A DNA stretch of 64,000 nt, from positions 1 through 64,000 of the forward strand of contig CAMVBJ010000001.1 of NCBI GenBank assembly GCA_947165675.1. Direction: 5' to 3'. This document shows, one piece after another, positions 361 through 25,256 of this stretch; positions within the stretch are counted from its first letter, which is position 1; each line of letters opens with the position of its first letter. This DNA comes from an uncultured Prevotellaceae bacterium. GTDB taxonomy: Bacteria > Bacteroidota > Bacteroidia > Bacteroidales > Muribaculaceae. Below the pieces are notes generated by a model that did not search any database, was not told the origin of the DNA, and saw nothing but the letters and a program-made list of their open reading frames with translations. The position numbers and the translations under genes were made by a program.

Positions 361-3207
361 TTAATTGCCTGACAGCAACATGTCGATGAGAGTGGTCACA
401 TCAGCTATGGTTACTCCATCGGCACCATTCACGTCGGCACAGATGGGGCAACTGCCACCCGCTTCATTGCCACTAAGCAGATAATCGATCAATGCAGTAA
501 CATCGGCAATGGAAACTGAACCGTCATGGTTCACGTCTCCGAGGTCAAATCCGTGACCATTCTCGAACAGGGTCACTTCCTCGACATTACTCCAAGCGCT
601 CTCGGTACCGTCAGCAAACACGGTCTTCACCTTATAGATATAGGTGCCAGCGGCCTCAAGGTCACCAACGGTATAGAAGCGGTCAGTAATGTCAGTAATC
701 AGACGATAGGTGGCATCGCCACTCTCACTGGCCTTGAGTTGCATGGTGTTCAAATCACCTGCATAGACCTCAACAGCCTTCAGGGCCAGCAGATTGTTGG
801 TGGTGCTGAACGACACCCTGTCATTGGCATCACAATCGAGCACTACAACGTAATCCTCAAAGTCTTCACCCAGGGTCAGTGTTTGGCTACCCTTACTGGT
901 AGAAACCTCAATGGTGGCGTTACCGTAGTAACTCTGGTAATAAGAACAAGCCTTCAAGACTACAGTCATCTTCTCATAGCCCGTAAGATTGTAATACGGG
1001 GTGCGGATGAGAGCCTGTGAAATCAGGTAACCACCATAGGCATACAGGGGAGAAGTGCACGTCCAGCCTTGAGGCAGGTAACCCTCGGTATTACCCGATA
1101 TATCAGCCAGATAGCCATTGTCAATAGCATCAGGAACGGTGCTGAAGTCGGCCGTTTCGAGCAGATCGACATTAGGCTTGGTGCTTACCTCAAGAGTGTA
1201 GCTGGCCACATTCTGGGCAGACGTCAGGTCGGTCCAGTCGGCACGGAATTGAGTCAAGTTGATATAAGTACTGTCGGCAGGTAACATCACGGGAGCATAG
1301 CCCTCGATGAGACCGTGACCGGTGAGGTTGACCACGATATCCTGAGCACCGTTGCTCTTCAGGGTCAACGTAGCGTTATAATCTTTAATGGCAGTAGGAT
1401 TGAAAGTCACCACGACGCTCATGCCATTGGCTGCATCGACTGCACTGATTACGTTAGGCTCAACAGAGAACACATGGTCGGGATCATTCACCTCAAGCAC
1501 GATTTCGCCCGTCAACGCCTGGCCAATGACATGGAGGTTCATGCTTTCACTTGAGTTCATCATCACGTTGCCAAAGTTCATATCGGTCGATGAAACCGAG
1601 ATAGTGGGATCGACCGCTGCACCCTTCATGAACCAGAAGCTGGCTGTTCCGTCGGCATTGATCACCATCTCGGTCACGGGCTTGCCCAGGTTGCCTGCGT
1701 TACCCGAGATGTTGCCATTGGCAGCCATGAAGAGCTTGGCGGCAGGGGTAGAATTGTCGGTAAAGGCATTGTTGTTGCCACGCGGCCACAGGTCGGCACC
1801 CTCGTTATAATAGGATGAGGAGTTGTCGGCAGGCACAACATACATCAACTGGATGTCCTGGTTGTTAGGCGTATTTGCCCACCAGCGGTCGGCATCATAG
1901 GTCACATGGGTGATCATGATGCCCTCGCCCGGCATGTAGCGGTCCCAGCCCTGGCGCTTGCGGTTCTCGATGATGAAATACTCGTTCTCGTTCAGGTCAC
2001 TGGTGATGCACACAGCCTTGTCGGTCGATTGCTGCTTCAGGTTAAACACGGGCAAGGTATAATAGGTTCCAGGTCGAGCCTTGATATAGTCAATCCAGCC
2101 CATGAACACCTTCTCATAGGCCGTGTAGCCTGGAGGCGTGAAGCCATCGTTGTTGTAGCAACCATTGCACATGATAGACCAGCTACCCATGCCATAGTGG
2201 CCACCGTTGCCCGTATCATAGAAGTCGGGCAAACCCAAGCAGTGACCAAACTCGTGGGCAAACGTGCCAATGCCGTCGATGGTCTTGCCGTCATCGTTAC
2301 CGCCATGCAGCTCGTTGAACACAGCGAAGTTGTTGACATAGGGGTCACCATCACTGGGACGGAAGGCACCATTACCACCATAGTTATAATAGGCAGCGGC
2401 ATCAAGTGTCCAGTTACAGGGCCAGATGGCTTGAGGATAGGTTGTTGAGGCTTGAGCCTCGCCCACACCTGCATAAATCACGATGACCACGTCACAGAGG
2501 TCGTCGTCATTGGTATCATAGGGGGAGAATGACACACCGTCGGCAGCCGCCAACTGGCACGCCTCGGTCACCATTGATCCCAGGCCCTTGTCATTGCCGC
2601 CCACGTTACCACCATAATACTCGCGGTTTTGGGACAGGCCATAGATGCCATAGACATCAAAATCGGGTTGATACAAGCCATTGGACTGGTCACGGAAGTA
2701 TTGTCCCACGCTCTCCTGACCCGTGAGCATGGCCTGGATGATATCCTCGCGTGTGTTATTGAACTTCTTGTCCTTGAACTCGACCAGAATAATGGGAATG
2801 CGGCGATTGCCCAGCGAGGGAACATCGGCATCGGCATTGCTGCCACCCACACCCAGCTTGCTCTTCTTGCCAGGCATCTGGAAAGACCTGTGTTGCATCG
2901 TCAGGTTGGCCCGCTGGGCATTAATGAATGCCGACTCGGCAGGAGTGCGCAGCTTGACATCATGGGCACGCATGGTCGTCAGTCCCGTCAACGACGAGGT
3001 GTAGTAAAAGTCACCGTCAGCGCCACGGGCCACCGTCAGGCCATCGCGGGTGAGAATCGCATGATTGAACGCATTACCCACAGCTTGCACCTGCAGGGTC
3101 GTTCCGTCACTCTGAGTAATCGTGTGCCAGCCTGGCTTGGCGGGCACTGCCATGGCCGCAAGCGAGCAGCACATCAGCATTAAGAAAGATAAAAATTTCC
3201 TTTTCAT
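361..3207 (-). CDS. Secreted M6-family zinc metalloprotease with C-terminal dockerin-like repeats
   Basis: A 948-aa exported peptidase. A hydrophobic signal peptide covers about the first 20 residues. The zinc site is HEFGHCLGLPDFYD, with HEFGH at residues 318-322, followed by YGMGSWSIM, the usual met-turn of M6 (immune inhibitor A-like) peptidases. A beta-sandwich of the choice-of-anchor D type follows at about 540-635, then a domain of unknown type. The last 60 residues hold two calcium-loop helix repeats (GDVNHDGSVSIADV and ADVNGADGVTIADV) resembling a type I dockerin. In this group such tails occur on many secreted proteins without any cellulosome, so a surface-anchoring or stabilising role is inferred. 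The gene stands alone, with a -7 box 46 bases upstream of the ATG. Confidence 0.9.
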   Translation of the reverse strand: MKRKFLSFLMLMCCSLAAMAVPAKPGWHTITQSDGTTLQVQAVGNAFNHAILTRDGLTVARGADGDFYYTSSLTGLTTMRAHDVKLRTPAESAFINAQRANLTMQHRSFQMPGKKSKLGVGGSNADADVPSLGNRRIPIILVEFKDKKFNNTREDIIQAMLTGQESVGQYFRDQSNGLYQPDFDVYGIYGLSQNREYYGGNVGGNDKGLGSMVTEACQLAAADGVSFSPYDTNDDDLCDVVIVIYAGVGEAQASTTYPQAIWPCNWTLDAAAYYNYGGNGAFRPSDGDPYVNNFAVFNELHGGNDDGKTIDGIGTFAHEFGHCLGLPDFYDTGNGGHYGMGSWSIMCNGCYNNDGFTPPGYTAYEKVFMGWIDYIKARPGTYYTLPVFNLKQQSTDKAVCITSDLNENEYFIIENRKRQGWDRYMPGEGIMITHVTYDADRWWANTPNNQDIQLMYVVPADNSSSYYNEGADLWPRGNNNAFTDNSTPAAKLFMAANGNISGNAGNLGKPVTEMVINADGTASFWFMKGAAVDPTISVSSTDMNFGNVMMNSSESMNLHVIGQALTGEIVLEVNDPDHVFSVEPNVISAVDAANGMSVVVTFNPTAIKDYNATLTLKSNGAQDIVVNLTGHGLIEGYAPVMLPADSTYINLTQFRADWTDLTSAQNVASYTLEVSTKPNVDLLETADFSTVPDAIDNGYLADISGNTEGYLPQGWTCTSPLYAYGGYLISQALIRTPYYNLTGYEKMTVVLKACSYYQSYYGNATIEVSTSKGSQTLTLGEDFEDYVVVLDCDANDRVSFSTTNNLLALKAVEVYAGDLNTMQLKASESGDATYRLITDITDRFYTVGDLEAAGTYIYKVKTVFADGTESAWSNVEEVTLFENGHGFDLGDVNHDGSVSIADVTALIDYLLSGNEAGGSCPICADVNGADGVTIADVTTLIDMLLSGN

Positions 3208-3311: not shown

Positions 3312-4328
3312 TCAGTTATTCAGTTGGAATTTAGCGATTGCGGCAGCTTGAGATCGTGCGGGTTTCCCATTCGGTGTCAAGGGCAAGCAGGAGATGGCAA
3401 GAATCTGCTTGGGACGTGCATACTTAGCCAGGTGCCGCTCACACATTTCACGGGCAGCCAGCACATCAGCATCGGTGCCCTGCACGAGCATCACCACAAT
3501 TTCGCCGAACTTGGCATCAGGGCACTTGGTTATCAGGAAGGGCGTGGCGATGTAAGGTGCCAGGGTCTGTTCAAGCTGCTCGATATGGATTTTCACTCCG
3601 CCCGTGTTGATGACGTTATCAATGCGACCCAGTATCTTGAAATGCTGGTTGCCAGGCTGCATTTCCACCACGTCGTGGGTGATGAGGCGCTCGGGACACA
3701 GGTGAGGAGCATCGATGACAAGACAGTTGTCGGGGGTTGTTGACAAGGTCACGCCAGGCATGGGCGTGAACCAGGTTGACGCCTCGGGACCACTCACGCG
3801 GCGCAGGGCGATGTGGGACAGCGTCTCGGTCATGCCGTAACTGTGCCAAATCGCATTATTGAAGCCTCGTAGCTGCCTTTCCAGTGACAGCTCCAGCGGA
3901 CCGCCACCGATGATGACATGGCGGATGTTGCCCAATATGTCACGCTCTCGCGGGTCTTGCAGACTGCTGTAAACCTGCATGGGCACCATAGCGGTAAAAT
4001 CCACATTTTTGCCCATTTCATCGACCCATTCAGGCCTATTGAGCGGATGACTGGAAGGCTCTACCGACAGCAATCTCAGGTTTCGTTCGATGGCTCGCAC
4101 CACCATCATCTTGCCCGCAATATAGTCCACACTCATGCACAACAGCGCCGTGTCACCTGGCATGAGGCCCAAGAAATCGCAGGTTGCTCGAGCACTGGCC
4201 AGCATGCGACGTTTCTCGACGCGCATCACCTTGGGCGTGCCTGTCGAGCCACTGGTGTGCACCTCGATGGTATCGGTGGCACCACGCCACTCATGGAGGA
4301 ACTCGTCAACCGTCATGGCAGGTACCAT
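3312..4328 (-). CDS. menE: O-succinylbenzoate-CoA ligase
   Basis: An adenylate-forming enzyme that activates o-succinylbenzoate with ATP and CoA, the fifth step of menaquinone synthesis. The AMP-binding signature HTSGSTGTPKVM lies near residue 24. HSYGMTETLSHIALR is the adenylate-binding A5 region, GRIDNVINTGGVKI is the hinge, and PLTPNGKPAR near the C-terminus holds the catalytic lysine. At 338 aa it is much shorter than the roughly 450-aa E. coli protein because the N-terminal lobe is reduced, as is common in Bacteroidota. It is the last gene of the men operon and its start overlaps the end of menC by 16 bases, which suggests translational coupling. Confidence 0.93.
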   Translation of the reverse strand: MVPAMTVDEFLHEWRGATDTIEVHTSGSTGTPKVMRVEKRRMLASARATCDFLGLMPGDTALLCMSVDYIAGKMMVVRAIERNLRLLSVEPSSHPLNRPEWVDEMGKNVDFTAMVPMQVYSSLQDPRERDILGNIRHVIIGGGPLELSLERQLRGFNNAIWHSYGMTETLSHIALRRVSGPEASTWFTPMPGVTLSTTPDNCLVIDAPHLCPERLITHDVVEMQPGNQHFKILGRIDNVINTGGVKIHIEQLEQTLAPYIATPFLITKCPDAKFGEIVVMLVQGTDADVLAAREMCERHLAKYARPKQILAISCLPLTPNGKPARSQAAAIAKFQLNN

Positions 4329-5353
4329 AGTTTATCGCCCTGGATGGCGATGGGGATGGTGTCAACATTGTCGGTAAACAGTTGGCCCGTGCCCAATCCC
4401 TGGGGCATAGTGATGGCTGGACCATAAAGCTCGGCAGCCAAGTGGGCAATGGCGTTAAGACCCACGTTGCTCTCCAGCGCACTGGTGATCCACGAGCCGA
4501 TGCCACGCTCCTGGGCCAAGGCGATCCACTCACGACAACCAGCCATGCCACCATGGAGCGATGGCTTGAGGATGATGTACTGGGGACGGATGGTGTCAAG
4601 TAGCTGGCGCTTGCGGTCAAGGGTGTTGACGCCTATCAGTTCCTCGTCGAGGGCAATCGATAGCGGTGAGGACTCACACAATCGTGCCATCTCCTGCCAC
4701 TGGCCAGCCATGATGGGCTGCTCGATGGAATGGATATCGTGCATGGACAACTGCTGCAAGCGGTCTAAGGCGACAGTGGGCGCAAAGGCACCATTAGCAT
4801 CGACACGCAACTCGATGCGGTCACTGCCGTAACGGTCACGCAAGCGGCGAATAAGCGCCATTTCATCGACAAAATCGATGGCTCCAATCTTGATTTTAAC
4901 ACAGGAGAAGCCCTGAGCGAGTTTCTGCTCCAGCCGTCTCGACATGGTGTCAAAGTCACCCATCCACACCAGGCCGTTGATGGGTATGCCCTCTTCACCA
5001 CGGGCAAACGGGGTCGAAGACAATGCAGTACTGCCCCCACGATGCAGTTGCAGCCACGCCGTTTCCAAGCCGAAGAGCATCGACGGAACATCACGCATGG
5101 CATCCACATCGATGCCGCCACGGGCACACACGTCATCACAATGCCGCCTCAACACTGCGTCATAGTCAGGCAGGTCATCACAACTCAAGCGGGGAAGCGG
5201 GGCACACTCCCCCACCCCGACGATGCCTGGCAAGTCATCACACGTGAGATGCACAAAGCGGCTGGTGCGCGTGAGATAGACGCCACGCGAAGTGCCCGCG
5301 GGCTCCTTGAAGTGGAACACTCGGGTAGTGATGTCGATGTGGTAACTGCTCAT
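4313..5353 (-). CDS. menC: o-Succinylbenzoate synthase
   Basis: An enolase-superfamily dehydratase that converts SHCHC to o-succinylbenzoate. The lysine pair KIKIG, the metal-ligand sites RVDANGAF, IEQPI and ALDEEL, and the second catalytic lysine in IILKPSLHGG are in the expected order. The 346-aa length is normal. The ATG overlaps the menB stop by one base (TGATG), and its end overlaps menE, so menB-menC-menE form one tightly coupled unit. Confidence 0.93.
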   Translation of the reverse strand: MSSYHIDITTRVFHFKEPAGTSRGVYLTRTSRFVHLTCDDLPGIVGVGECAPLPRLSCDDLPDYDAVLRRHCDDVCARGGIDVDAMRDVPSMLFGLETAWLQLHRGGSTALSSTPFARGEEGIPINGLVWMGDFDTMSRRLEQKLAQGFSCVKIKIGAIDFVDEMALIRRLRDRYGSDRIELRVDANGAFAPTVALDRLQQLSMHDIHSIEQPIMAGQWQEMARLCESSPLSIALDEELIGVNTLDRKRQLLDTIRPQYIILKPSLHGGMAGCREWIALAQERGIGSWITSALESNVGLNAIAHLAAELYGPAITMPQGLGTGQLFTDNVDTIPIAIQGDKLWYLP

Positions 5354-6203: not shown

Positions 6204-6369
6204 TTGTGAGTCCACTTAAAAAAGTCGCTGCCTATTTTATCGCCTGCGAATTAATCAAATTATACGAATAATTATTTATTATCCTGGTAAAAATGGAGTC
6301 ATTGTTAGAAATAACGTGATAAAAATTCGATTAATTTGATTAATTCGTAGGCAGATCACAAGTGGATTC
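6204..6369. repeat. Long imperfect inverted repeat between the R-M gene and menB
   Basis: The arms 6242-6262 and 6331-6352 share GAATTAATCAAATTA, and an outer pair at 6209-6217 and 6360-6369 shares TCCACTT. The stop of the restriction-modification gene (6368) lies in the right outer arm. The DNA is AT-rich and non-coding. It could form a large cruciform or RNA hairpin and may be the downstream border of the inserted gene. Confidence 0.6.
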
Positions 6370-9300
6370 AGGTCACTATTTTGTCAATTTCATTCATTAA
6401 GCGTTCTGTTTGCATTAGCACATAGATGATCTGCTCATAGTGCTTCACATCCTCGAAGTTCAGGGTCATTCCCTTGCGGTCTTTGAGCCACTTCTGTGCC
6501 GGTTGGTAACCACCGATATAGAATTGCCAAGCTGATTGGGGCACACCCTCAAAGTATTGCTCACTGTTGATATAGACTCTACCGTCCTGCCAGCGGTAGC
6601 AATCGACACGCAACGATCCAGCAACAGGCATGGTAACACCTGTCAATGAAGGCAAACCTTCCATTAAGTGCAAGCGCCGCAATTCAGCACCTTTTTCTTT
6701 CAAACTGTGATATTGTGTTGCAGTTGCAGGAAATGGTATCCGAGGAAAATCTATCTTTAGAAATTCCTTGTAGCGTTCCCGATAGGACGGAGAATGCAAC
6801 ACCGCATAGATGTAGTCAAAGAGTTCTTCGGAAACAACCTTCTCGCCCAACGACTGCTCAATCTGCTCTACAATCTCTATATTGAAGTTCGGAATAATAT
6901 TATCACCTTCCTCAAAAATAGGATTACTCTTATTGGACTTGATATAAAGTGGAAATACATAGGTTGCTTCTTTTGTCTGAGAAGAGTTAGTACATTTATC
7001 AGCAAAAGCCTCTTTTACTATAAATACATGTTGAAAATCGAACGAACTTTGTTGTTTACAAACCAGAAGACCTAAATTCTGCGGATGCAATAAAACATCC
7101 AACGAACGGCCTCGTGGCCAGGCCACGAGGCCGTTCGTTTTTCCAGTATGTACTATGTACTTAGTATCAAATGGACGATAAAGATAAGGAGCAACGATTG
7201 CCTCGTTCTCTTTGACATCGGCCATGGCTCTTTCTACCGACCAATCTCGTGTATCATTGCCTGTATTATATTTTTCTCTAAATGCTTCAATCGAAAGATT
7301 TCTACAATCCTGTATGAGTATTTTTGCCTCTTCCTTGGTTGATTTTACATTAACTTTATCTTTAGACGTAACAAAGCCACATACATTATATGTAAATAGT
7401 TGATCAAGTTTGAAGCCTTTTTCATAGTCATCTCGTGCAGAAAAATCTTTTGGTACAAAGAAATAATACGGATCTTCTAAATTGATATTAGTCCATGGAG
7501 TCTCTACAAATAAAAGAGACTTTAATGTTTCGTATTTATAATTACGCAGACCATATATGTCATGATAGAATACATGTCCAAGGCTATTTTTGGCTTTTCT
7601 ACCTGTTTTAACAAAGATATTAATGCTAACACCTTGCTGAATGTCAAACACGTTTTCATCTTTGCTTCCATCTATTGCTGTTTCACGCTTTTTGCTATTT
7701 CCATGTAAATTAATGATATAAATGTTGTCAAATGCCTCAAGTAATCTTCTTCGCATTTGACGAAAAATAATCCCATCTAAAAAAGAATTATTTGAAATAA
7801 TACCTACAATTCCTTCCCCATTTTTCTCCACATAATATTGTGCAAGTCTTATGAACTTGATGTAATCATCGCTTAATGGTTGTATATTCTTTTCATTCAA
7901 ATTTTTCTTGTAGTCAGCTATTAGGTTAGTTATCCAATTACCGTTATTTTGACTACTAATAGAATACGGTGGGTTGCCGACCATGACCATTACCGGGCAG
8001 TCGCGCTTAATGATGCTTGCCCTCTTGGCCTCGTTGCTGAGCCATACCGAGAAAAGGGTGTCAATGTCCTTATTGGCTTCCTCAAGCGAATTGGTGAGCA
8101 ACAGGTTGAGTCCTGGGAAATCTGTTTCAGACAATCCCACGTCATCCTTGAGTTGCAAGAAGAGCTTCATGTGGGCAATGGTGTAGGGAGCCATCATCAC
8201 TTCAAAGCCGTAAATCCTGGGCAAAAGATAGGAGCGCACATAGTCTTTCCATATACCCTCGTTGCCGATGAATTTATCCTTGATCTGCCTGATGATTTCA
8301 TGGAGGAAAGTGCCTGTTCCCATGGCGGGATCTAAAATCTGAACCCTAAAGACATCCTGAGTGACATGTTTCTTGCGATCGGCAGTTCGCTTGTCCTGGC
8401 TTTGCTCCAGAGCTATCGTATGCGGTATCTTGCTATAGTCGGCTAATCCATCTGCCAAGCCAAAGTCACGCTGCAATATCTCATCGATGGCTCGCACAAT
8501 AAAGCTCACTACAGGCTGCGGAGTGTACCACACACCACGCGCCTTGCGCAATGCAGGATTATAGGCAGCAAGAAAGTCTTCATAGAAGTGCATCATGGGA
8601 TCCTCTCGCTGGGTATCCTTGTTATAGCTTGTGAGCACCTTCCTCATATCGGTTGCGCCAAAAGCCGTAACAAGGTCATCAATGATCCACTCGATGCGAG
8701 GGTCGGGATCAAGGCCTACCACTTGCTGGAACAGGTTGCGTAGAAAAGGACTTGTCTTGGGAATCAGGCTCAAGGCCTCATGACGTGAGAAATCTTCAGG
8801 TGTCTTGTCGTTGAGTCTTGCTGCAAAAAGTCCATAGACAATCGTCTGAGCATACACATCAGCAAAGGATGCTGGAGTAATGTCGTGCAAGAGGACACGC
8901 TTGAACGTTTCCATCTGCTCCCTCAATCCAGATTGGAACGCTTTATCCTGCGGTAGCTGGAAAAGTGAATCAGCGTTACCATTGCCATCGTTAGCTTTAT
9001 CTTCATCTGACACTACGGCCTGCTCAATTACCCTTGCTAACAAACGAGCCTTAGCAGCCATCAGCTTTGCTAAACGTGAAGCAGAGGTAATCTTCTGTAT
9101 AGCAACACCTGCCAAGTGATTGATCATGCCCAGAAACTTATCCTGGGCCTCGCTGATAGCTACAATCTTATCACCCTTGACCTGGGCAATGCGAACACTG
9201 TCCACAAACTCTCCATGCTCATAGAGGTGGAAATCCAGATAATCAGTAAATATAATATAGTCAAGTGCCTGCCTGTAACGATCAAACTGCTCTTTGTGGC

Positions 9301-9556
9301 CCTTAAGATTACGCCCATCCAGGTCATTGTCGCCTATATCCTTGGCTTCGACAAAAAACACGGGCAGATGATCCTTCTCACGCATGATGATATAGTCGGG
9401 CGCACCACATTCAAAGTGAGCTGGCTCATTGGTCACCACCATCGATGGCATTAGGTTCTCTAAAAGGTTTTTCAGGGCTGGGCGATAAGAGTGCTCCCGA
9501 GCCAAACCAGTGCGATACTGCTGATTGATATCGGTGATGTATTGTTTTAAGTCCAT
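6368..9556 (-). CDS. Type ISP-like restriction-modification enzyme (nuclease-methyltransferase-specificity fusion)
   Basis: A single-chain enzyme of about 1062 aa. The N-terminus carries a PD-(D/E)xK nuclease pattern, with PD at residues 53-54 and EAK at 70-72. A helical coupler follows. An N6-adenine methyltransferase domain has motif I DPAMGTGTFLHE (from about 409) and motif IV NPPYS (528-532). The C-terminal 450 residues would be the target-recognition part. It lacks the helicase of full type ISP enzymes such as LlaGI (about 1600 aa), so it behaves more like type IIG. I start at ATG 9556; an earlier in-frame TTG exists at 9577. It sits 17 bases after menD and splits the men operon. The stretch around 7000-7950 is more AT-rich than its flanks, suggesting exchange of the recognition domain. 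Confidence 0.85.
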   Translation of the reverse strand: MDLKQYITDINQQYRTGLAREHSYRPALKNLLENLMPSMVVTNEPAHFECGAPDYIIMREKDHLPVFFVEAKDIGDNDLDGRNLKGHKEQFDRYRQALDYIIFTDYLDFHLYEHGEFVDSVRIAQVKGDKIVAISEAQDKFLGMINHLAGVAIQKITSASRLAKLMAAKARLLARVIEQAVVSDEDKANDGNGNADSLFQLPQDKAFQSGLREQMETFKRVLLHDITPASFADVYAQTIVYGLFAARLNDKTPEDFSRHEALSLIPKTSPFLRNLFQQVVGLDPDPRIEWIIDDLVTAFGATDMRKVLTSYNKDTQREDPMMHFYEDFLAAYNPALRKARGVWYTPQPVVSFIVRAIDEILQRDFGLADGLADYSKIPHTIALEQSQDKRTADRKKHVTQDVFRVQILDPAMGTGTFLHEIIRQIKDKFIGNEGIWKDYVRSYLLPRIYGFEVMMAPYTIAHMKLFLQLKDDVGLSETDFPGLNLLLTNSLEEANKDIDTLFSVWLSNEAKRASIIKRDCPVMVMVGNPPYSISSQNNGNWITNLIADYKKNLNEKNIQPLSDDYIKFIRLAQYYVEKNGEGIVGIISNNSFLDGIIFRQMRRRLLEAFDNIYIINLHGNSKKRETAIDGSKDENVFDIQQGVSINIFVKTGRKAKNSLGHVFYHDIYGLRNYKYETLKSLLFVETPWTNINLEDPYYFFVPKDFSARDDYEKGFKLDQLFTYNVCGFVTSKDKVNVKSTKEEAKILIQDCRNLSIEAFREKYNTGNDTRDWSVERAMADVKENEAIVAPYLYRPFDTKYIVHTGKTNGLVAWPRGRSLDVLLHPQNLGLLVCKQQSSFDFQHVFIVKEAFADKCTNSSQTKEATYVFPLYIKSNKSNPIFEEGDNIIPNFNIEIVEQIEQSLGEKVVSEELFDYIYAVLHSPSYRERYKEFLKIDFPRIPFPATATQYHSLKEKGAELRRLHLMEGLPSLTGVTMPVAGSLRVDCYRWQDGRVYINSEQYFEGVPQSAWQFYIGGYQPAQKWLKDRKGMTLNFEDVKHYEQIIYVLMQTERLMNEIDKIVT
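7101..7139. repeat. Perfect 39-bp palindrome inside the R-M gene
   Basis: Arms of 19 bases (7101-7119 and 7121-7139) are exact inverted copies around a single central A. The sequence is in frame and encodes residues about 807-819 (TNGLVAWPRGRS) of the specificity region. Confidence 0.95.
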
Positions 9557-9573
9557 AGTCTGCACTTGATTTT

Positions 9574-11232
9574 TCAATTGATTAATGAGGCAAGTTGTTG
9601 AATGGCTTGGTTCCAGGCGTGGCGGTCGTGGGGGGCGTCGGTGATGACTTCGAGCAGGCGTGGACGGGTGCTGTCGTCCTGCACGAGCCAGGTGATGCCG
9701 CTGTACAGGTCCTCGCTGCCATGGGCTGCTCGGTATTCCACGCCATGCTGGTCGCAGCAGCCACGGGCATGGGTCATGTGAGCGGCGGCAATCATCTTGT
9801 CACGGGCTGGAGAAGCCTCAAGTCCTGGCAGTTGAGAGAAGATGCCACCACCGCCGTTGTTGAGCAGCAGGATGCGCAGGTTGCCCCGCAGATTGCCATT
9901 CCACAACGCATTTTGATCATAGAAGAAGCTCAAGTCGCCTGTCACGCACAACACACGCTCATCGGTCACCGCGGCACAACCGGCAGCAGCCGAGGTTGAA
10001 CCCTCGATGCCGTTCACTCCACGATTACAGCGGACGTGCTGTCGCGCAAACAGATTGGCCAGGCGAACGGGTTGGCTGTTAGCGAAATGTAGAATTACCG
10101 GGTGACTCCATTCTCGTGCCGACTGCAAGGCCAATTTCACTGCCAACATCTGAGAAAAATCGGGACGCAGGCTATCGAAATGCCAAGCTAATTGATCCAG
10201 ATGCTCATTCCATAGCCGGGCAAAGGGGTTGCCCACAGCGGTGCCAAACAGTTTTTCCAGGACATGTAAAGCCGCCCGGGGAGAACATTGAACCACTTGG
10301 GTCAAGTTGCCAAAGGTATCATGGATAGCCCCGTTCTCACTGACTTGAACCATGGGCACATCAGTCAAGCGACGCAAATAGGCCTTGACGCGCTTGCTCA
10401 CGAGCGTTCCACCCATGTAGATGACAAAATCGGGCTCAAAATCGGGATGATGCTCCACCAGAGGGAGCAACTCGTCAAACGCATGGCCACCGTCGTCTGA
10501 ACCCAACGACTCGACAAGCACAACCAGGTGAGGCACCAGGTGAGTCATGATCTCATGAGTGACCAAGCCGTGAGTCATCTGGCCGATAACCAACATCGGT
10601 TTTTTAGCCGATTTGATGGGCTTCAAAACCTCAAAAAGCGCCATTTCATCGACCCAAACGGCCATTGATGTGATGATGCGCTCGACGGGTAATTCAGGTA
10701 CAGTGAAGTTAAACAACGGCTCGTCATAGGGCACATTGATGTGGACCGGACCCCCGCGACGGACAGCCAGCATCGCCTCATTGACCATGCGGTTACAATG
10801 CCATCGAGTGAGATCATCATGAGGTTCAACCAGGTTGACATCCATCAACGTGAATTGCGACAAGACACCTGGTTGATCAATGGTCTGCCCCATCTGCTGG
10901 CCAATGTGGGCCATGGGACGATCGGCACTGATGATGACCAAAGGTATATTGCGATGAAAAGCCTCGGCCACCGCTGGTGATAAGTTGAGAATAGCTGTCC
11001 CAGAGGTGACCACCACGGCAACAGGCTCACCCAACTGCTCGGCCATGCCCAGAGCAAAGAAGCCGGCACTGCGCTCGTCGGTCACCGGGAAGCACTCCAC
11101 CTGCGGGCACTCGTTGAGGTTGTGCACGATGGGGGCATTGCGCGACCCCGGGCACACCACGGCATGGGTAACGCCGTGACCGAGCATCACGGCACACAGG
11201 ATATTGATATTTTCCTTGTCGCTGTAATTCAT
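9574..11232 (-). CDS. menD: 2-Succinyl-5-enolpyruvyl-6-hydroxy-3-cyclohexene-1-carboxylate synthase
   Basis: A thiamine-diphosphate enzyme that joins isochorismate and 2-oxoglutarate, the first committed step of menaquinone synthesis. The N-terminal VVCPGSRNAPIV and TDERSAGFFALGMA regions and TSGTAILNLSPAVAEA are typical. The ThDP/Mg site is in the C-terminal part (CVTGDLSFFYDQNALWN, LLNNGGGGIF). I start at ATG 11232 (MNYSDKENI), 5 bases after the menF stop; the frame is open upstream only from a TTG. The 552-aa length is normal. Its usual operon partner menB is displaced by the restriction-modification gene. Confidence 0.94.
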   Translation of the reverse strand: MNYSDKENINILCAVMLGHGVTHAVVCPGSRNAPIVHNLNECPQVECFPVTDERSAGFFALGMAEQLGEPVAVVVTSGTAILNLSPAVAEAFHRNIPLVIISADRPMAHIGQQMGQTIDQPGVLSQFTLMDVNLVEPHDDLTRWHCNRMVNEAMLAVRRGGPVHINVPYDEPLFNFTVPELPVERIITSMAVWVDEMALFEVLKPIKSAKKPMLVIGQMTHGLVTHEIMTHLVPHLVVLVESLGSDDGGHAFDELLPLVEHHPDFEPDFVIYMGGTLVSKRVKAYLRRLTDVPMVQVSENGAIHDTFGNLTQVVQCSPRAALHVLEKLFGTAVGNPFARLWNEHLDQLAWHFDSLRPDFSQMLAVKLALQSAREWSHPVILHFANSQPVRLANLFARQHVRCNRGVNGIEGSTSAAAGCAAVTDERVLCVTGDLSFFYDQNALWNGNLRGNLRILLLNNGGGGIFSQLPGLEASPARDKMIAAAHMTHARGCCDQHGVEYRAAHGSEDLYSGITWLVQDDSTRPRLLEVITDAPHDRHAWNQAIQQLASLIN

Positions 11233-11237
11233 GATTA

Positions 11238-12266
11238 TCAATCGATTAGAGATAACATGGCCTGCATCTTGGCAGCGGTTTCATCCCATTCAAGTGCTTC
11301 CTCGCTCTGTGACAAAATTCCACCGCCAGCAAACAAGCGGTAACGGTCGCTGAAGATGCGCATACAGCGCAACGAGACAAACATCGCTGTATCACCATCG
11401 AGATTGATAGGGCCTGAAAAACCACTATAATAGCTGCGGTCAAGACACTCATTATCAAGAATGTAGTGGAAAGCTTCCTGCTTGGGTACGCCACAGACCG
11501 CCGGCGTGGGATGCAGGGTCTCAAGCACGTCGCCGATGTGGACCCCAGCATTGAATGTAAACTTGAAATCGGTGCGAAGGTGCTCCAGAATTCCTGCCTG
11601 GACGGTATAGGGACCATCGATCTGGATATCATTGCTGAATCTATCCAGACAGGACTTGATGTATTGTGCCACATACTGCTGTTCACGCTGATTCTTGTCG
11701 CTCCATTGTGCTGTGGAGTCGGTGATTCGCATGGTGCCAGCCAGAGCCATCGTGTGCCACTGGTCCTCATGGCGTGACAAGAGCACCTCGGGGGTTGCCA
11801 CAAGCCAAGTGCCACACTGTGGAGCCGAAAACAGCGTCACAAAAGCCTCGGGATTGGCCCTGCAAGCCTGTACAAACAGACTCACAGGTTGGGTACCGTT
11901 ATGGGTGACATCGGCACAGCGTGCCAACACCAATTTCTGGATATCGGTTACCGAAAAAGATCGATGAAATCGGGAAAAAACCTCATGATAGGTGTCCCTT
12001 GAAGCCGGCTTCAAGGGAATGTCAGTACCATCGAGATATAGGGGTAAAGAACCCATTGCAGCCACATCGTCAAGGGTGCAATCCTGGACTACATCAGGAT
12101 GCAATAGAACGATGGGTGAACCATCGTTTACAGCAAATGGTGCTATCACAAAACCCGAGTCGTCACCGATGGCCTGAAACGACGACAACGTGACCGGGTC
12201 GCCGTGCTGAACCACCAGCTTGCAACGGCTGGTGTGAGGCAAACGATATAGTGCAAAAGCATCCAC
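11238..12266 (-). CDS. menF: Isochorismate synthase
   Basis: A chorismate-utilising enzyme that converts chorismate to isochorismate for MenD. The C-terminal half carries the family signatures LHPTPAVCGVPKQEA, RSYYSGFSGPINLDG and RLFAGGGILSQSEEALEWDE. At 342 aa it is shorter than the roughly 430-aa E. coli MenF, with a reduced N-terminus as usual in Bacteroidota. The start appears to be GTG at 12266. It lies 18 bases after rdgB and 5 bases before menD, so it is probably read from an upstream promoter together with rdgB. Confidence 0.9.
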   Translation of the reverse strand: MDAFALYRLPHTSRCKLVVQHGDPVTLSSFQAIGDDSGFVIAPFAVNDGSPIVLLHPDVVQDCTLDDVAAMGSLPLYLDGTDIPLKPASRDTYHEVFSRFHRSFSVTDIQKLVLARCADVTHNGTQPVSLFVQACRANPEAFVTLFSAPQCGTWLVATPEVLLSRHEDQWHTMALAGTMRITDSTAQWSDKNQREQQYVAQYIKSCLDRFSNDIQIDGPYTVQAGILEHLRTDFKFTFNAGVHIGDVLETLHPTPAVCGVPKQEAFHYILDNECLDRSYYSGFSGPINLDGDTAMFVSLRCMRIFSDRYRLFAGGGILSQSEEALEWDETAAKMQAMLSLID

Positions 12267-19017: not shown

Positions 19018-22000
19018 ATGAAGAAGCTATTTCTGCTGCTGATAGCCATCTGTGCTATCTCACTGGGCATGAGTGCCCAACAAGTAGTGAGGGGACAAGT
19101 TACCGATCCCAACGGCGAACCGCTGATTGGTGCAACGGTACAGCCCATTGGCGGAGGAAACGGCGCGGCCACCGACGTTAACGGTGAGTTCTCGCTCAAT
19201 CTTCCCTACAATGTGAAGACCCTCAAGGTTTCGTATGTGGGTTACAAGACCCAGGAATTACCTGTTCAGCCTTCAATGGCCATCACGTTGAGTGACAATG
19301 GTGCCACCAACCTGGACGAGGTGATGGTAGTTGCCTATGGTACTGCCAAGAAGACCTCTTACACGGGTTCGGCCGAGGCTGTGACCAACAAGAAACTGGA
19401 GTTGCGTCCCGTGACCGATGCTACCAAGGCCCTCGAGGGTAATGTAGCCGGTCTGCAGGTGACCAGCGCATCGGGCCAGCCCGGTTCGTCGCCCAACATC
19501 CAGATTCGTGGTTACGGTTCTATCAACGCTTACAGCACCCCGTTGTATGTTGTTGATGGTGCACCCTTTGACGGCAACCTGAGTTCAATCGCTCCCTCGG
19601 ACATCGAGTCGATGACTGTCTTGAAGGACGCTAGTGCTGCCGCTCTGTATGGTGCCCGTGGTGCCAACGGTGTTGTGATGATTACTACCAAGAAGGGTGT
19701 TGAGGGCCGCAGCAATATCATGTGGCGTTCGACCTTCGGTTGGTCATCACGTGCCACCAAGCGCTACCAGCATGTTGACCAGAAGGAGTATGTTCAGCTC
19801 GTGTATGAGGCTCTGCGCAACCAGGCTATTGACAATGGTAATAGCTGGAGTGATGCTGAGGCCATCGCCCGTGCCGGCCTGAGCGGCCAGCTGGGTGGCG
19901 AGCAGTACAACCCCTTCAAGAATTACAGCTGGGATCAGTTGATTGACCCCGCTACTGGTTACGTTCGCGAGGATGCCAAGAGCGCCTGGGACGAGGACTG
20001 GTATGACAGCGTTATCCGCAAGAACGCCTTCCGTCATGAGCATCAGTTGCAGGTGACCGGCGGTAGCGAGCACGCACAGTACATGATGTCGTTGGGTTAC
20101 TTGAATGAGGACGGTATCCTGAAGACCACCAACTATGAGCGTTACACCGGCCGTGCCAACATCACGAGCCAGATCACTGACTGGTTGGGCGCTAACATCA
20201 ACGCTTCGTTGGCCCACTCGGTAAGCAACTTCAGCGACTATGACGGTACCAGCACTTCTAACCCCTGGTACACCGCACAGTTCATCAACCCGCTGCTGCC
20301 TGTTTACTTGAAGGACATCAACGGTAACACCGTATATGACAGCGATGGTAACATCCAGTATGACTGGGGTGAGGCAACTCCCAATGGTACCCGTCCCGGT
20401 TCGTTGAGCGACTTCTCGTCGCTGGGTATGCTGATGCTCGATAAGGCCGACACCAAGCGTGACGTTGCTGGCCTGCGCACCGGTCTGGTGCTGGGTAGCG
20501 ACCTGGCCAAGTACGGCTGGCGTCAGGGCTTGAAGCTGGCTGTGAACTTCAGCATGGACTATGTGAACCGCAACTACATGCGCTACATGAACTCGCAGCA
20601 CGGTAACCAGGCTAACGCCGGTGGTCTGCTGGAGAAAACCAATAGCCGCACCCAGAGCTACACCTTCAACCAGTTGCTGACTTGGGACCGCTCCTTCGGT
20701 GATCACACCATCGGCCTGTTGCTGGGTCACGAGTGGTATGCTTACCAGTACAGCTACCTGCTGGCTGGCAAGACCAACCTGGTTGACGGCATCTTTGAGT
20801 TGCGTCCCGCAACCACACTGCTCGAGGCTGACTCCTACAGTGACAAGTATCGCATTGATTCTTGGCTGGGTCGTGCAAGCTACAACTATGGTGGCCGCTA
20901 TTTCTTGACTGCTTCGCTGCGTCAGGATAAGTCCTCACGTTTCCACCCCGATCACAACAAGGGTACCTTCTGGAGTGTAGGTGCCAACTGGCGTATCTCG
21001 GGTGAGAAGTTTATGGAGAATGTGGGTTGGATCAACAACCTGTCTGTTAAGGCCAGCTATGGTGAGCAGGGTAACGATATGTTGACCACTTACTATGCAT
21101 GGCAGTCACTGTACAACCTGAGCTACAGCAACGCTACCAACATCGGTGCGCTGATCTCTTCGCTCGAGAACCAGAACGTATCTTGGGAGAAGAGCCAGAA
21201 CTTCAACGCTGGCTTTGACGCTATCCTGTTCAACCATCGCTTGCAGTTGAATGTGGACTTCTACAACCGCTTGACCAAGAACATGCTGCTTAACCGCCCC
21301 ATGGCATTGTCGACTGGTTTCACCGGTTTCATGGACAACGTGGGTGACATGCGCAACCGTGGTGTTGAGGCATCACTGCGCATCACTCCCGTCCGCACTG
21401 CCGACTTTGAGTGGAACATCACCGCAATGGCTACCCACAACAAGAACAAGGTCATCAAGCTGACCAAGGAGGCTCCCGAGCTGATCAGCGGTGTTCGCGT
21501 GATCAAGGAAGGTATGCCCATCAACACCTATTATATGGCTAAGAGTGCTGGTGTAGACCCCTCTAACGGTCATTCACTGTACTGGGCCTATGAGAAGGAC
21601 GATGATGGTAATATGGTTCCTGGCAGTGAGTATATCACCGATAGCTACTCGGTTGCTAACACCTGCAAGTACTACCTGGGCAGCCGTCAGGCTGACATCT
21701 TTGGTTCACTGGGAACTGACTTCAGCTGGAAGGGTCTGACCCTGAGCGTGCTGACTACCTATTCGCTGGGTGGCAAGGTTTATGACAGCCTGTATGCCAG
21801 CGACATGAACCTGTGGTACCTGAGCTCGACCTGGAACAAGAACGCTATGCGCCGTTGGCAGAAGCCCGGTGACGTGACCGACGTTCCTCGCTCGACCATC
21901 GCTGAGTCGATTGCTGCCAACGACCGCTTCCTGATTGATGCTAGCTACTTCGCTATCAAGAACATCACTTTGGCATGGGCTCTGCCCAACAACTGGATCA

Positions 22001-22716
22001 GCAAGCTGGGTATGACCGGTGCCCGTATCTTCGGTTCGGTCGACAACCTGGCTCTCTTCACCCACCTCGATGGTATGGATCCCCAGTACAACTTCAGTGG
22101 TGGTACCGATTATGACTACAGCCCCAACAAGACCTACACCGTGGGTATCGAGCTGAACTTCGGTAAGAGCTATGCAGCAGCTGCTCCCGCCGTCAACGTT
22201 AACGCCTTGAATAGTCAGATCAACGACCTGCGCGCTCAGCTCGCTGACGCTCAGGGTGCCGCTGCCGACGCCAACAGCCGTCTGGCTCAGCTGCAGGGTG
22301 ACCTCGACGCCGCTAACCGCGCTCTGGCCAACTGCCGCAACGACCTGAATGCTGCCAAGAATGTTGCTCCCAAGGTGGTTGACAACAGCAAGCAGTACAT
22401 GAACATCCTGGTTCACTTCCCCAAGAGTGGTACCGCAATCACTGCCGACCAGCGTGCCAACGTTGAGCGCGTGGCTGCTTATCTGAAGAGCCATCCCGAG
22501 GCAACCTGCGTTATCAAGGGTTATGCTTCGCCCGAGGGCAAGGAAGAGGTGAACATCAAGCTCGCTAACGGCCGTGCCGCCAGCGTGAAGGATATGCTCG
22601 TCAAGAAGTATGGTATCGCTGCCAACCGCATCAACGCCGCTGGCCAGGGTATCAGCAACATGTTTGACGAATTGAGCTGGAACCGTGTTTCCATTTGCGA
22701 AATCATTGTTAAGTAA
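19018..22716 (+). CDS. SusC/RagA TonB-dependent receptor fused to a C-terminal OmpA domain
   Basis: An outer-membrane active importer of 1232 aa. A signal peptide covers about the first 20 residues, then a carboxypeptidase-D-like beta-sandwich (GQVTDPNGEPLIGATV), a TonB box region (DEVMVVAYGTAKK), the plug domain (DASAAALYGARGANGVVMI) and the beta-barrel, ending around TYTVGIELNFGK (residue 1050). Normal SusC proteins stop here. This one continues with a coiled-coil-like Ala/Asn/Leu linker (about 1056-1110) and an OmpA domain (about 1120-1232; GYASPEG, RAASV, GIAANRINAAGQG, WNRVSICEI). The OmpA arginine that binds diaminopimelate is kept (RAASV), while the usual aspartate position is a serine in GYASPEG. 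It is followed by susD. Codon use is strongly biased to a few codons, suggesting high expression. Confidence 0.93.
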   Translation: MKKLFLLLIAICAISLGMSAQQVVRGQVTDPNGEPLIGATVQPIGGGNGAATDVNGEFSLNLPYNVKTLKVSYVGYKTQELPVQPSMAITLSDNGATNLDEVMVVAYGTAKKTSYTGSAEAVTNKKLELRPVTDATKALEGNVAGLQVTSASGQPGSSPNIQIRGYGSINAYSTPLYVVDGAPFDGNLSSIAPSDIESMTVLKDASAAALYGARGANGVVMITTKKGVEGRSNIMWRSTFGWSSRATKRYQHVDQKEYVQLVYEALRNQAIDNGNSWSDAEAIARAGLSGQLGGEQYNPFKNYSWDQLIDPATGYVREDAKSAWDEDWYDSVIRKNAFRHEHQLQVTGGSEHAQYMMSLGYLNEDGILKTTNYERYTGRANITSQITDWLGANINASLAHSVSNFSDYDGTSTSNPWYTAQFINPLLPVYLKDINGNTVYDSDGNIQYDWGEATPNGTRPGSLSDFSSLGMLMLDKADTKRDVAGLRTGLVLGSDLAKYGWRQGLKLAVNFSMDYVNRNYMRYMNSQHGNQANAGGLLEKTNSRTQSYTFNQLLTWDRSFGDHTIGLLLGHEWYAYQYSYLLAGKTNLVDGIFELRPATTLLEADSYSDKYRIDSWLGRASYNYGGRYFLTASLRQDKSSRFHPDHNKGTFWSVGANWRISGEKFMENVGWINNLSVKASYGEQGNDMLTTYYAWQSLYNLSYSNATNIGALISSLENQNVSWEKSQNFNAGFDAILFNHRLQLNVDFYNRLTKNMLLNRPMALSTGFTGFMDNVGDMRNRGVEASLRITPVRTADFEWNITAMATHNKNKVIKLTKEAPELISGVRVIKEGMPINTYYMAKSAGVDPSNGHSLYWAYEKDDDGNMVPGSEYITDSYSVANTCKYYLGSRQADIFGSLGTDFSWKGLTLSVLTTYSLGGKVYDSLYASDMNLWYLSSTWNKNAMRRWQKPGDVTDVPRSTIAESIAANDRFLIDASYFAIKNITLAWALPNNWISKLGMTGARIFGSVDNLALFTHLDGMDPQYNFSGGTDYDYSPNKTYTVGIELNFGKSYAAAAPAVNVNALNSQINDLRAQLADAQGAAADANSRLAQLQGDLDAANRALANCRNDLNAAKNVAPKVVDNSKQYMNILVHFPKSGTAITADQRANVERVAAYLKSHPEATCVIKGYASPEGKEEVNIKLANGRAASVKDMLVKKYGIAANRINAAGQGISNMFDELSWNRVSICEIIVK

Positions 22717-22723
22717 GATTAAT

Positions 22724-22835
22724 CAGTTTTTAGTTTTAAGTTTTTAGTTTTAAGTAATATTACCTTATTGACTATTCAATTTCAGGCGATACTAGCTGTA
22801 CTTAAAACTTAAAACTTACAACTTACAACTAAAAC
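22724..22835. repeat. Inverted TTTTAAG/CTTAAAA repeat between susC and susD
   Basis: Left arm 22724-22756 (repeated TTTTTAGTTTTAAG) and right arm 22800-22835 (repeated ACTTAAAACTTA) can pair into a long AT-rich hairpin. The right arm ends 11 bases before the susD ATG. It could tune susC versus susD expression or be a repeat scar. Confidence 0.6.
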
Positions 22836-22846
22836 AAGATACAAAC

Positions 22847-24394
22847 ATGAAAAAGATATTTAAATATTTGTTTATTGGCCTGTTTGGTGTGGCTTGCCTG
22901 ACCTCGTGTAACAGCGAGTTGCTAGAGACTGAGCCCACCGACTCGATGTCGGGTTCAACCTTCATGAGCGACGCTACCAAGGCGTTGATTCCATTGAACG
23001 GTATCTACCGCTCGATGTACACTGCTGGCTGGTCCACCACCGGTAACACTCACCAGTGCTTCGGTATCAGCGCCTATAACCTGATGGGCGAGGTCATGGG
23101 TGACGACTTCATCATGGGAGCCCAGGGTAGTGGCTGGTTCTGGTTCGACGCTGCCTATAATGTAAAGGGCCGTTTCACCAGCAGCTCATGGCGCAGCTAT
23201 GACCTGTGGATGGCCTACTACACCTGGATTGCTAACGCTAACTATATCATCGCTGCCGAGGAGACCATGGAAGGCTCCAGCGAGGATGTTGGCTACGTAA
23301 TCGGTCAGGCTTATGCCATCCGTGCCTACAGCTACTTCATGTTGGCACAAACCTTTGCACGCAACTACAACTTCAGCAACGATCCTTGTGTGCCCATCTA
23401 CAATGAGCCCACTATGACCACCACCACCGGTCAGCCCCGCTCGACCGTGGCTCAGGTGTATGAGCAGATCGACAATGACATCAACAAGGCTATTGAGTTG
23501 CTGGCCAAGAGCCCTGCTCAGCGTCATCCCAGCCACATCAGCTATGCTGTGGCTCTGGGTCTGAAGTCCCGCATCGCCCTCGTCGAGGAGAAGTGGGGTG
23601 AGGCCCTGGACGCTGCCCAGAAGGCTATCGCCGCCAGTGGCAAGAGCATTCAGACTGTTGATGCCAGCGCATTTGCTCCCAACAAGGCTAACTTCATCAA
23701 CTCTGTTGGCCAGGGTAACGTGATGTGGGGTGCTCAGATCGTCAGCGATCAGGCTGGTATGTATGCTTCGTTGATGACCCACATGAGTGGCACCGCTCCT
23801 TATGGCGAGCGTGCTCCCAAGGTGATTTCCTCTTGGCTCTACGACAAGATGAGTCCTACCGATAGCCGCCGTATATGGTGGAACCCCGCCGAGGGTTACC
23901 AGCAGAAGAAGTTTGAGTTCTCCAATGCTCAGACTTGGGAGGCTGACTACATCTGGATGCGTGTTGAGGAAATGTACCTCAACGCTGCCGAGGCTGCTTG
24001 CCATGCCAACAATGATGCACTGGCTAAGGAGTATCTGATGGCCTTGATGAGCCAGCGTGATGCTAACTACAACACCAACAAGACTGGTAACGCATTGGCT
24101 ACCATTACTACCGAGAGCACTGGCTCGCTGCTCGATGAGATCCTGATCCAGCGTCGTCTTGAGCTGTGGGGCGAGGACGGCCGCATCTACACCATCCGTC
24201 GCCTGCACCAGGGCTTCGTACGTCCCTCCGAGTTTGGTTGGCCCGATGGTCTGCTGCTGCCTACCCACCAGACTGCTATGAAGGATCCCGCCAGCTACCT
24301 GTGGGTACTCACTATTCCTCAGGCCGAGTTTGACGGCAACGTCAACATGGATATCAACAAGGATCAGAACCCCGTTGGTGACTATCCTGAGTAA
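22847..24394 (+). CDS. SusD/RagB-family surface lipoprotein
   Basis: The substrate-binding lid of the SusCD importer, 515 aa. The lipobox is CLTSC with acylated Cys21. The SusD-like N-terminal fold begins near ELLETEPTDSM, TPR-type helices follow (GQAYAIRAYSYFMLAQTFA), and the C-terminal EILIQRRLELWGEDGR motif is diagnostic. It is paired with the SusC-OmpA gene and followed by a third lipoprotein. No glycoside hydrolases or sugar regulators are next to it, so the substrate cannot be inferred. Confidence 0.95.
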   Translation: MKKIFKYLFIGLFGVACLTSCNSELLETEPTDSMSGSTFMSDATKALIPLNGIYRSMYTAGWSTTGNTHQCFGISAYNLMGEVMGDDFIMGAQGSGWFWFDAAYNVKGRFTSSSWRSYDLWMAYYTWIANANYIIAAEETMEGSSEDVGYVIGQAYAIRAYSYFMLAQTFARNYNFSNDPCVPIYNEPTMTTTTGQPRSTVAQVYEQIDNDINKAIELLAKSPAQRHPSHISYAVALGLKSRIALVEEKWGEALDAAQKAIAASGKSIQTVDASAFAPNKANFINSVGQGNVMWGAQIVSDQAGMYASLMTHMSGTAPYGERAPKVISSWLYDKMSPTDSRRIWWNPAEGYQQKKFEFSNAQTWEADYIWMRVEEMYLNAAEAACHANNDALAKEYLMALMSQRDANYNTNKTGNALATITTESTGSLLDEILIQRRLELWGEDGRIYTIRRLHQGFVRPSEFGWPDGLLLPTHQTAMKDPASYLWVLTIPQAEFDGNVNMDINKDQNPVGDYPE

Positions 24395-24428
24395 ATAATG
24401 TTTAATCTCATTAAACTAATTGAATATT

Positions 24429-25256
24429 ATGAAATTAGGTAAATATATTTTAGGCTTGGCTCTCGTCGCTGCTGCTTTTACCAGTTGCGATACTGAGAAC
24501 AAGGGTGCCATCTATGAGCCCACTGTAGCCAATATCTCCTTTATGACCGCTGAGCCGAGCACTGTTGTGACCAAGGCATCCAGCATTGAGATTCCCGTGG
24601 CTCTATCGCGTGCTATCAAGAACGGTAGTTACACTGCCAATGTTACGCTTACCGATGCACCTGCCAATGTATCACTCAAGAGCAATCAGGTAACCTTTGC
24701 CGACGGCGAGGGTATTGCCTATGCTACTGTTGTGTTCAATGAGATGGAGCCGGGTGAGACTTATACCGCAAAGGTTAGCCTCTCAGAAGCCGATGTCAAG
24801 ACTGCCAACACCGAGTTTGGTGAGCAGTTAGCGACATCTACAGTATCTGTTATGTGCGACTTCAACTGGATTGATGCCGGCACTTGCGACCTGTATGACT
24901 TTACATGCGCTATGTTTGGTCTCCCTGCACCCACCGAGGCAAAGGGTGTTAAGGTTATCCAAGGTGAGCGTTCCAACGTTTATCGCATCCTTGATCCCAT
25001 GGAGGCTCTCTTCCCTGGCGATCCCGATAACGATCATGACTACCTTGAGTTCACTTTGAAGGATGGTAAGATGAGCTTCACCGAGGGCTTCCATGTGAGC
25101 TACTGGGGCTACTACATCTACTACGTTCCCAGCAACTATCCCAGCTACTGCTTCGTTGCCGACGACGGCAACACCCACGACTTCAACTTCCTGTTGAATG
25201 ACAACGACGGTGGTCTGTACAGTGGTGGTCGCTTGGTTATCGTTTATCCCAACTGA
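24429..25256 (+). CDS. Surface lipoprotein of the SusCD locus (SusE-like position)
   Basis: A 275-aa lipoprotein with lipobox FTSC (Cys20). Residues about 45-140 form an Ig/Calx-beta-like domain (ALSRAIKNGSYTANVTL, VTFADGEGIAYATVVF). The C-terminal half is rich in Tyr and Asp (GYYIYYVPSNYPSYCF, NDNDGGLYSGG) and could be a ligand-binding face. I start at ATG 24429; the reading frame extends three codons upstream from a TTG. The position right after susD and the architecture suggest an auxiliary binding protein of the SusE/SusF kind, without clear sequence identity to them. Confidence 0.75.
   Translation: MKLGKYILGLALVAAAFTSCDTENKGAIYEPTVANISFMTAEPSTVVTKASSIEIPVALSRAIKNGSYTANVTLTDAPANVSLKSNQVTFADGEGIAYATVVFNEMEPGETYTAKVSLSEADVKTANTEFGEQLATSTVSVMCDFNWIDAGTCDLYDFTCAMFGLPAPTEAKGVKVIQGERSNVYRILDPMEALFPGDPDNDHDYLEFTLKDGKMSFTEGFHVSYWGYYIYYVPSNYPSYCFVADDGNTHDFNFLLNDNDGGLYSGGRLVIVYPN

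Follow-up and report, generated by a model that had tools for sequence, protein, structure and literature searches.

We report a gene in which a complete SusC/RagA-type TonB-dependent importer runs on, without a stop, into a stalk and a peptidoglycan-binding-type OmpA domain. The gene lies in the window, by which we mean the whole stretch of DNA analysed here (positions 1 to 64,000 of contig CAMVBJ010000001.1, assembly GCA_947165675.1, from an uncultured Prevotellaceae bacterium). We consider it likely that it encodes an ordinary SusCD importer carrying a porin-derived stalk and OmpA tail, captured once and then copied to five SusC families, which tethers the importer to peptidoglycan. The component parts are known and their combination appears new; the most unexpected point is that one tail is spread across five importer families.

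The importer part of the fusion protein is complete. Residues 23–1048 cover positions 2–981 of the 981-position SusC/RagA model TIGR04056, with a score of 805.5 bits against a cut-off of 368.25, and TIGR04057 matches at residues 195–225. Pfam places the carboxypeptidase-like domain (CarbopepD_reg_2, residues 24–104) and the plug (residues 112–219) in the positions usual for SusC, followed by OmpA (PF00691) at residues 1134–1214 with 48.1 bits against a gathering score of 27.2. The nearest solved chain by sequence, 8aa4, is a SusC homologue. The last barrel strand reads ...TYTVGIELNF and ends at F1048, where unfused orthologues have TAA at the equivalent point. Instead of meeting the usual SusC end at this strand, the single frame of 1232 residues continues for a further 184 residues, beginning with a short connector that varies among the five fused families and leading into a sequence common to all of them (Table 1). 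The initial annotation, made from the sequence of the window, had described a complete SusC continuing without a stop into an OmpA domain, and the profile matches bear this out.

The same architecture recurs in the genome and the genus. When the tail (residues 1049–1232) was used as a query, its own genome contained three fused SusCs (frames of 1239, 1264 and 1308), one stand-alone porin frame of 433 aa on a different contig (64% identity), as well as two weaker matches of OmpA type. Across the genus, the tail matched in 99 of 101 genomes, and a fused copy, as judged from frame length and identity, is present in at least 38 (in one of these, G027, it is cut by the contig end). In the named genome collection 151 stretches encode a relative, and the best 80 of the 151 resolve into 65 loci. 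These are labelled Muribaculaceae, Prevotellaceae, Porphyromonadaceae or Bacteroidales; their hosts, where stated, are goat, sheep, roe deer and water buffalo, and many further loci among them belong to the RUG series, which we take to be from cattle rumen. The window and the first 104 loci together supplied 76 distinct full-length fused genes (frame ≥1200), which form the basis of the comparisons below. Separately, some fused genes (G057:C16, G055:C58, G060:C105 and G048:C29) are read in two pieces owing to a stop or frame break, reflecting either decay or assembly error.

That two neighbouring genes had been merged by an assembly or sequencing error, a concern raised in the initial annotation, is next to impossible. 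Although the named loci are described as uncultured or metagenome-assembled organisms, the same junction is found in many independently assembled genomes and in five gene families, the porin sits on another contig, and all eight of the unfused genes displayed are without any trace of a tail. The recurrence of the junction refutes such an error, and the fusion is real. The fusion has not taken the place of a separate OmpA either, as had also been proposed: a porin of about 413–428 aa with a homologous tail is kept alongside it, and a separate porin-type match is listed for 36 of the 38 fusion-bearing genomes (in four of the 36 as short frames of 168–205 aa). Replacement of OmpA by the fusion was therefore rejected.

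By their barrels, the 76 fused genes fall into five families, A (18, including the window gene), B1 (16), B2 (16), C1 (17) and C2 (9). Median barrel identity between families is 28–35%, with C1 and C2 at 53% (eight sampled pairs per family pair), whereas tails compared over all pairs have median identities of 79% (within the set A, B1 and B2), 84% (C1 against C2) and 64–66% (A/B types against C types); single-pair tail identities between families span 59–90%. In a barrel tree that includes unfused relatives, every family is a clade with a support of 100 in the Shimodaira–Hasegawa-like approximate likelihood ratio test (SH-aLRT) and holds both fused and unfused members. The fused/unfused label changes seven times over the whole tree, once each in A, B1, C1 and C2 and three times in B2 (twice in a tree of B2 only). 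A single old fusion with later divergence of the barrels was rejected because the tails are far more alike than the barrels and because each barrel family has unfused members.

The unfused relatives are also evident from searches of the 101 genus genomes. With barrel A as the query (E up to 1e-200), 37 genomes match, comprising 22 with the tail, 12 with genes stopping just past residue 1049 and three that are incomplete or broken; the exceptions are G057, whose tailed copy is in two pieces, and G012, G049 and G062, which are incomplete or broken. The barrels of fused A copies are 82–98% identical to that of the window gene, and those of the 12 unfused copies 63–68%. A similar mix of tailed and tail-less genes was found for B2 (matches in 58 of 101 genomes), C2/C1 (73 of 101) and B1 (38 of 101). 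The unfused genes inspected end in ...NF or ...TF (DL or DI in C1) and then TAA, and their susD begins some tens of bases later.

The trees of the tail point to its origin in the OmpA porin lineage. With midpoint rooting, all 76 fused tails group in a single clade (bootstrap 99, SH-aLRT 97) beside the stand-alone porins of 13 fusion-bearing genomes. A second tree, from a quick search supported by SH-aLRT values only and with 10 porins from other genera as outgroup, gives the same order: the fused tails (97) and the 13 porins (95) come out as sister groups (99), and eight genomes without listed fusions have porins that branch outside this pair. Fused tails of all families are 62–72% identical to the porin of the same genome. 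Because all fused tails form one clade, sister to the porins of fusion-bearing genomes, a single capture of the tail is probable, followed by copying onto further SusC genes; the number and direction of these copying events are what we infer from the comparison. As a separate observation, gene L067 and the minus-strand C1 genes L058 and L098 have tails that group with a family other than that of their barrel, which are signs of tail exchange between loci.

The partner susD genes carry a trace of this copying. Three of the five unfused B2 susD genes (L264–L266) encode a signal peptide of the type MKLxKSxILCG..., which is also present on the susD of fused C1, C2 and B1, while the unfused orthologues of these carry other signals. 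Over the 18 residues ending at the lipid cysteine, the signals of fused C1, C2 and B1 share 65, 62 and 50% identity with unfused B2 and only 29, 40 and 32% with the unfused orthologues of their own family (for C1, the length filter left one of three unfused sequences, and C2 is represented by four fused sequences). The mature SusD proteins, by contrast, match those orthologues at 78, 56 and 75% identity and B2 at 25–29%. Since a B2-like signal is thus joined to a mature SusD of its own type, C1, C2 and B1 seem to have received from the B2 locus a copied segment made up of tail, gap and signal peptide, and the swapped signal peptide would mark the end of this segment in the three families. The signal of family A susD is not of the B2 type (23%).

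To describe the tail itself, we used an AlphaFold2 model that covers the tail alone, with a mean predicted local distance difference test score (pLDDT) of 75.4 and a predicted template modelling score (pTM) of 0.48. The stalk is modelled as one helix (block-mean pLDDT 76–90), and the predicted structure of the remainder has an OmpA-like fold of the peptidoglycan-binding type, in agreement with the coiled-coil-like linker and OmpA C-terminal domain first proposed. The linker has a hydrophobic period of 3.5 residues that was equalled in strength by 15 of 2000 shuffles; two C-type tails and the porin show the period less strongly, with 78, 63 and 87 of 2000 shuffles, respectively. The stalk is homologous to the linker of stand-alone OmpA and, as we read the alignment, has an insertion of 11–14 residues relative to the porin.

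The residues lining the predicted pocket are kept throughout. Ser1171, Asn1179 and Arg1186 are the equivalents of Asp576, Asn584 and Arg591 of PorE, as these are given in PMC7192894. The S/[ED]/N/R pocket was found by motif in 75 of 76 fused tails, and the 76th (L087) has it too, with Phe replacing the preceding Tyr. The initial annotation had correctly read Ser in place of the diaminopimelate-binding Asp, with the Arg kept, and had suggested that the binding mode of the fusion may differ. This second part is not supported: Ser occupies the position in all 21 stand-alone OmpAs read in the genus and in all 17 distinct stand-alone OmpAs of other genera (picked by motif expression), so it is not peculiar to the fusion. 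The change from Asp to Ser was inherited from the porin and is usual in the OmpA porins of this order. Median ratios of non-synonymous to synonymous substitution (dN/dS) are 0.105–0.197 for the tails and 0.065–0.225 for the barrels (first nine sequences per family), so purifying selection acts on tails and barrels alike.

Taken as a working model, the half of the native OmpA that lies in the periplasm, consisting of the stalk and the peptidoglycan-binding domain, would have been added past the last SusC strand, giving in effect an OmpA with its small barrel exchanged for a SusC barrel and with SusD as lid. Because the barrel is complete and SusD is present, import should proceed normally, as established for other SusCD pairs, and assembly in the outer membrane should be possible because in OmpA itself the last strand is likewise internal and a periplasmic part comes after it. 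The stalk would hang into the periplasm, where the OmpA domain would hold a cell-wall stem peptide non-covalently, and an importer tethered in this way would neither drift freely nor leave with blebbing membrane. Capture would have taken place once, in one lineage of ruminant gut Bacteroidales, before recombination carried the tail onto more SusC genes. Tethering to peptidoglycan, as first suggested in the initial annotation, remains the likeliest role, and peptidoglycan binding and some benefit from it would go with it. Candidate benefits are strength, nearness to the Ton motor or staying out of vesicles, among which sequence cannot choose.

Several observations weigh against capture once followed by tethering. 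The structural support is limited to the tail-alone model with the scores given above; no bound structure with Ser for Asp came up, although no search was aimed at one, and the 55-residue helix could also serve dimerisation. The C-type tails, at 64–66% identity to the A/B tails, are about as distant from these as either type is from the porin (medians 64–67%), so two separate captures, each from a close relative of the porin, are conceivable; the clade support makes a single one more probable. The unfused B2 genes G064:C5 (L262) and G033:C54 (L263) are nested among fused ones, so more than one loss or gain of the tail took place in B2 (or the gene was transferred), suggesting that the importer can do without the tail. 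In the tail tree B2 is not basal, though the signal peptides point to B2 as the donor. Lastly, the C1 and C2 tails intermix in this tree and the C1 gene L067 (4665–8528) has a B-like tail, such that later tail exchange must be assumed.

Alternative accounts of the tail differ in what they take its purpose to be. As the Ton motor touches peptidoglycan via ExbD, a wall-bound importer could be positioned within reach of TonB, as the initial annotation also raised, and energised more often. Positioning would lead us to expect tails on more SusCs, yet only three tailed ones were found in the window's own genome, where at least one SusC (at G000:C62) is tail-less, and the ExbD–peptidoglycan data presumably come from another phylum. 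In its favour, the stalk has the 11–14-residue insertion relative to the porin, and an interaction of ExbD with peptidoglycan and a proposed anchoring role are reported (PMC10771500, in part); on balance we consider positioning unlikely to be the main purpose. Exclusion from shed outer-membrane vesicles is a slightly less likely candidate. According to PMC6222051, an OprF-type porin with a peptidoglycan-binding domain stays in the outer membrane of Bacteroides thetaiotaomicron and some other SusC-like proteins are enriched in membrane and vesicles alike, but classical SusC and the TonB-dependent receptor BT_2817 are also retained, with no tail mentioned there.

Two further accounts would make wall binding secondary or of no use. 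The swapping of tails between loci (the B-like tail of L067 and the intermixing of C1 and C2), together with the unfused members inside fused B2, would be expected if a useless tail were hitch-hiking by recombination among repeated susCD loci. This is improbable given the purifying selection indicated by the dN/dS values, the pocket residues kept in 76 of 76 tails and a frame kept across many species, though a few fused genes are read in two pieces. SusCD pairs are dimers, and the stalk, with its 3.5-residue periodicity, might mainly form a coiled coil that joins both SusC units within a SusC2D2 dimer, with wall binding secondary. Such a role would leave the retention of a complete OmpA domain and pocket unexplained, and the linker of the parent porin has the same period, making it similarly improbable as the main purpose.

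Beyond the genus, no second occurrence came to light within the scope of our searches, all of which report the best matches; those of the family, order and phylum scored at most 6–8 candidates per genome, and a rare or divergent fusion elsewhere may thus have escaped them. Among the matches listed for 397 genomes of the family there was no joined gene, and in the 16 multi-match genomes that were rechecked all frames were ≤433 aa. In 393 genomes of the order, a SusC-sized frame matching across the junction was listed only for the window's own genome; a 396-aa frame in G643 (28% identity) aligned weakly across the junction and is porin-sized. With a profile of all five families, among the matches listed for 395 genomes of the phylum only the own genome spans 1–297. 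The other SusC matches listed mostly stop near model position 115–122, and one (G1183) reached position 183 through two stops. The open-licence literature, as covered by listings and abstract openings, yielded no description of SusC fused to OmpA. Within this scope the fusion was not found to be a routine architecture, a finding that the initial annotation had named as one that would refute it.

The fusion shares with SusC/RagA proteins (TIGR04056) the full-length carboxypeptidase-like domain, plug, barrel and terminal aromatic residue, with susD next to it, and differs from the members listed from other genera, which end near the last strand, in the added stalk and OmpA domain. With Bacteroidales OmpA/OprF-type porins, in which PF00691 follows a small barrel, it shares a homologous tail and the same Ser/Asn/Arg pocket; in the fusion the SusC barrel stands in place of the small one and the stalk has the insertion described above. 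As far as we know, the closest functional parallel is OmpM of Veillonella, which we take to be not TonB-dependent and without an OmpA domain. OmpM is likewise a single barrel protein that serves both nutrient uptake and the tethering of the outer membrane, and differs in being a trimeric porin of Firmicutes whose stalk binds polyaminated peptidoglycan (PMC10628300, in part). PorE of the type IX secretion system has another OmpA domain of the Bacteroidota envelope, solved with a peptidoglycan fragment; PorE is a periplasmic lipoprotein with an Asp/Asn/Arg pocket and without a transport barrel (PMC7192894).

Table 1. Features of the fusion gene and its cluster in the window
Feature	Coordinates	Strand	Description
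SusC–OmpA fusion gene	19018..22716	+	single open frame, 1232 aa, without internal stop
Complete SusC/RagA TonB-dependent importer part	19084..22161	+	residues 23–1048; from TIGR04056, Pfam and the ends of unfused orthologues
Short variable connector, start of added tail	22162..22197	+	residues 1049–1060
Stalk	22198..22362	+	residues 1061–1115; single helix in AlphaFold2 model, coiled-coil-like
OmpA peptidoglycan-binding-type domain	22417..22659	+	residues 1134–1214; fold extends to ~1231
Pocket residues Ser1171, Asn1179, Arg1186, Glu1173	22528..22575	+	Ser where canonical OmpA has Asp; Glu1173 two residues past Ser
Partner susD lipoprotein gene	22847..24394	+	515 aa; PF14322 and PF07980; directly downstream of fusion
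Third cluster gene, possible lipoprotein	24420..25256	+	278 aa, after susD; no Pfam or NCBIfam match

A susD-like start was found after 68 of the 76 fused genes, the remaining eight not having been read. The third gene may encode a surface binding protein belonging to the cluster. The neighbouring window genes that were scanned include no glycoside hydrolase. Between the fused susC and susD (22717–22846) lies an AT-rich palindrome of ~110 bases that resembles a dispersed palindromic element. Three further copies in the genome are close to full length and 83% identical; two of them follow the remaining fused genes and the third is on contig C33. They are among 60 matches, mostly short, obtained with E up to 1 (both strands and the query counted). 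The palindrome is present or absent between close relatives. It was rejected as part of the moving tail because it is missing behind the fused A genes L044, L047 and L049 and because of these 60 matches. Elsewhere in the window, a type ISP restriction–methylation gene (6368–9577, minus strand; PF18135 and N6 methylase) overlaps a menD-like gene by four bases; its neighbours, menC-like (4313–5353), menD-like (9574–11241) and chorismate-binding (11238–12266), are presumably menaquinone-related. A peptidase M6 protein with a terminal type I dockerin domain is encoded at 361–3207 (minus strand).

The fusion bears on the positioning and retention of SusCD importers with respect to the wall and the Ton motors. 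A bolder view, which we put forward tentatively, is that the OmpA tail may be a transferable anchor cassette by which recombination repeatedly makes free SusCD importers wall-bound; its ends would lie at the terminal Phe of the barrel and, in three families, at the susD signal peptide, and a subset of importers would be organised on peptidoglycan beside the Ton motor. Orthologous importers with and without a wall anchor, in one genus and in five families, amount to a natural experiment, and since tailed and tail-less orthologues coexist, the effect of tethering is testable by exchanging natural tails. Bacteroidetes are reported (PMC12204202) to be without detectable pal genes, and extra links between outer membrane and wall are for this reason of wider interest. 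The five families also show the spread of a domain between distantly related susCD loci, one way for envelope proteins to gain an anchor.

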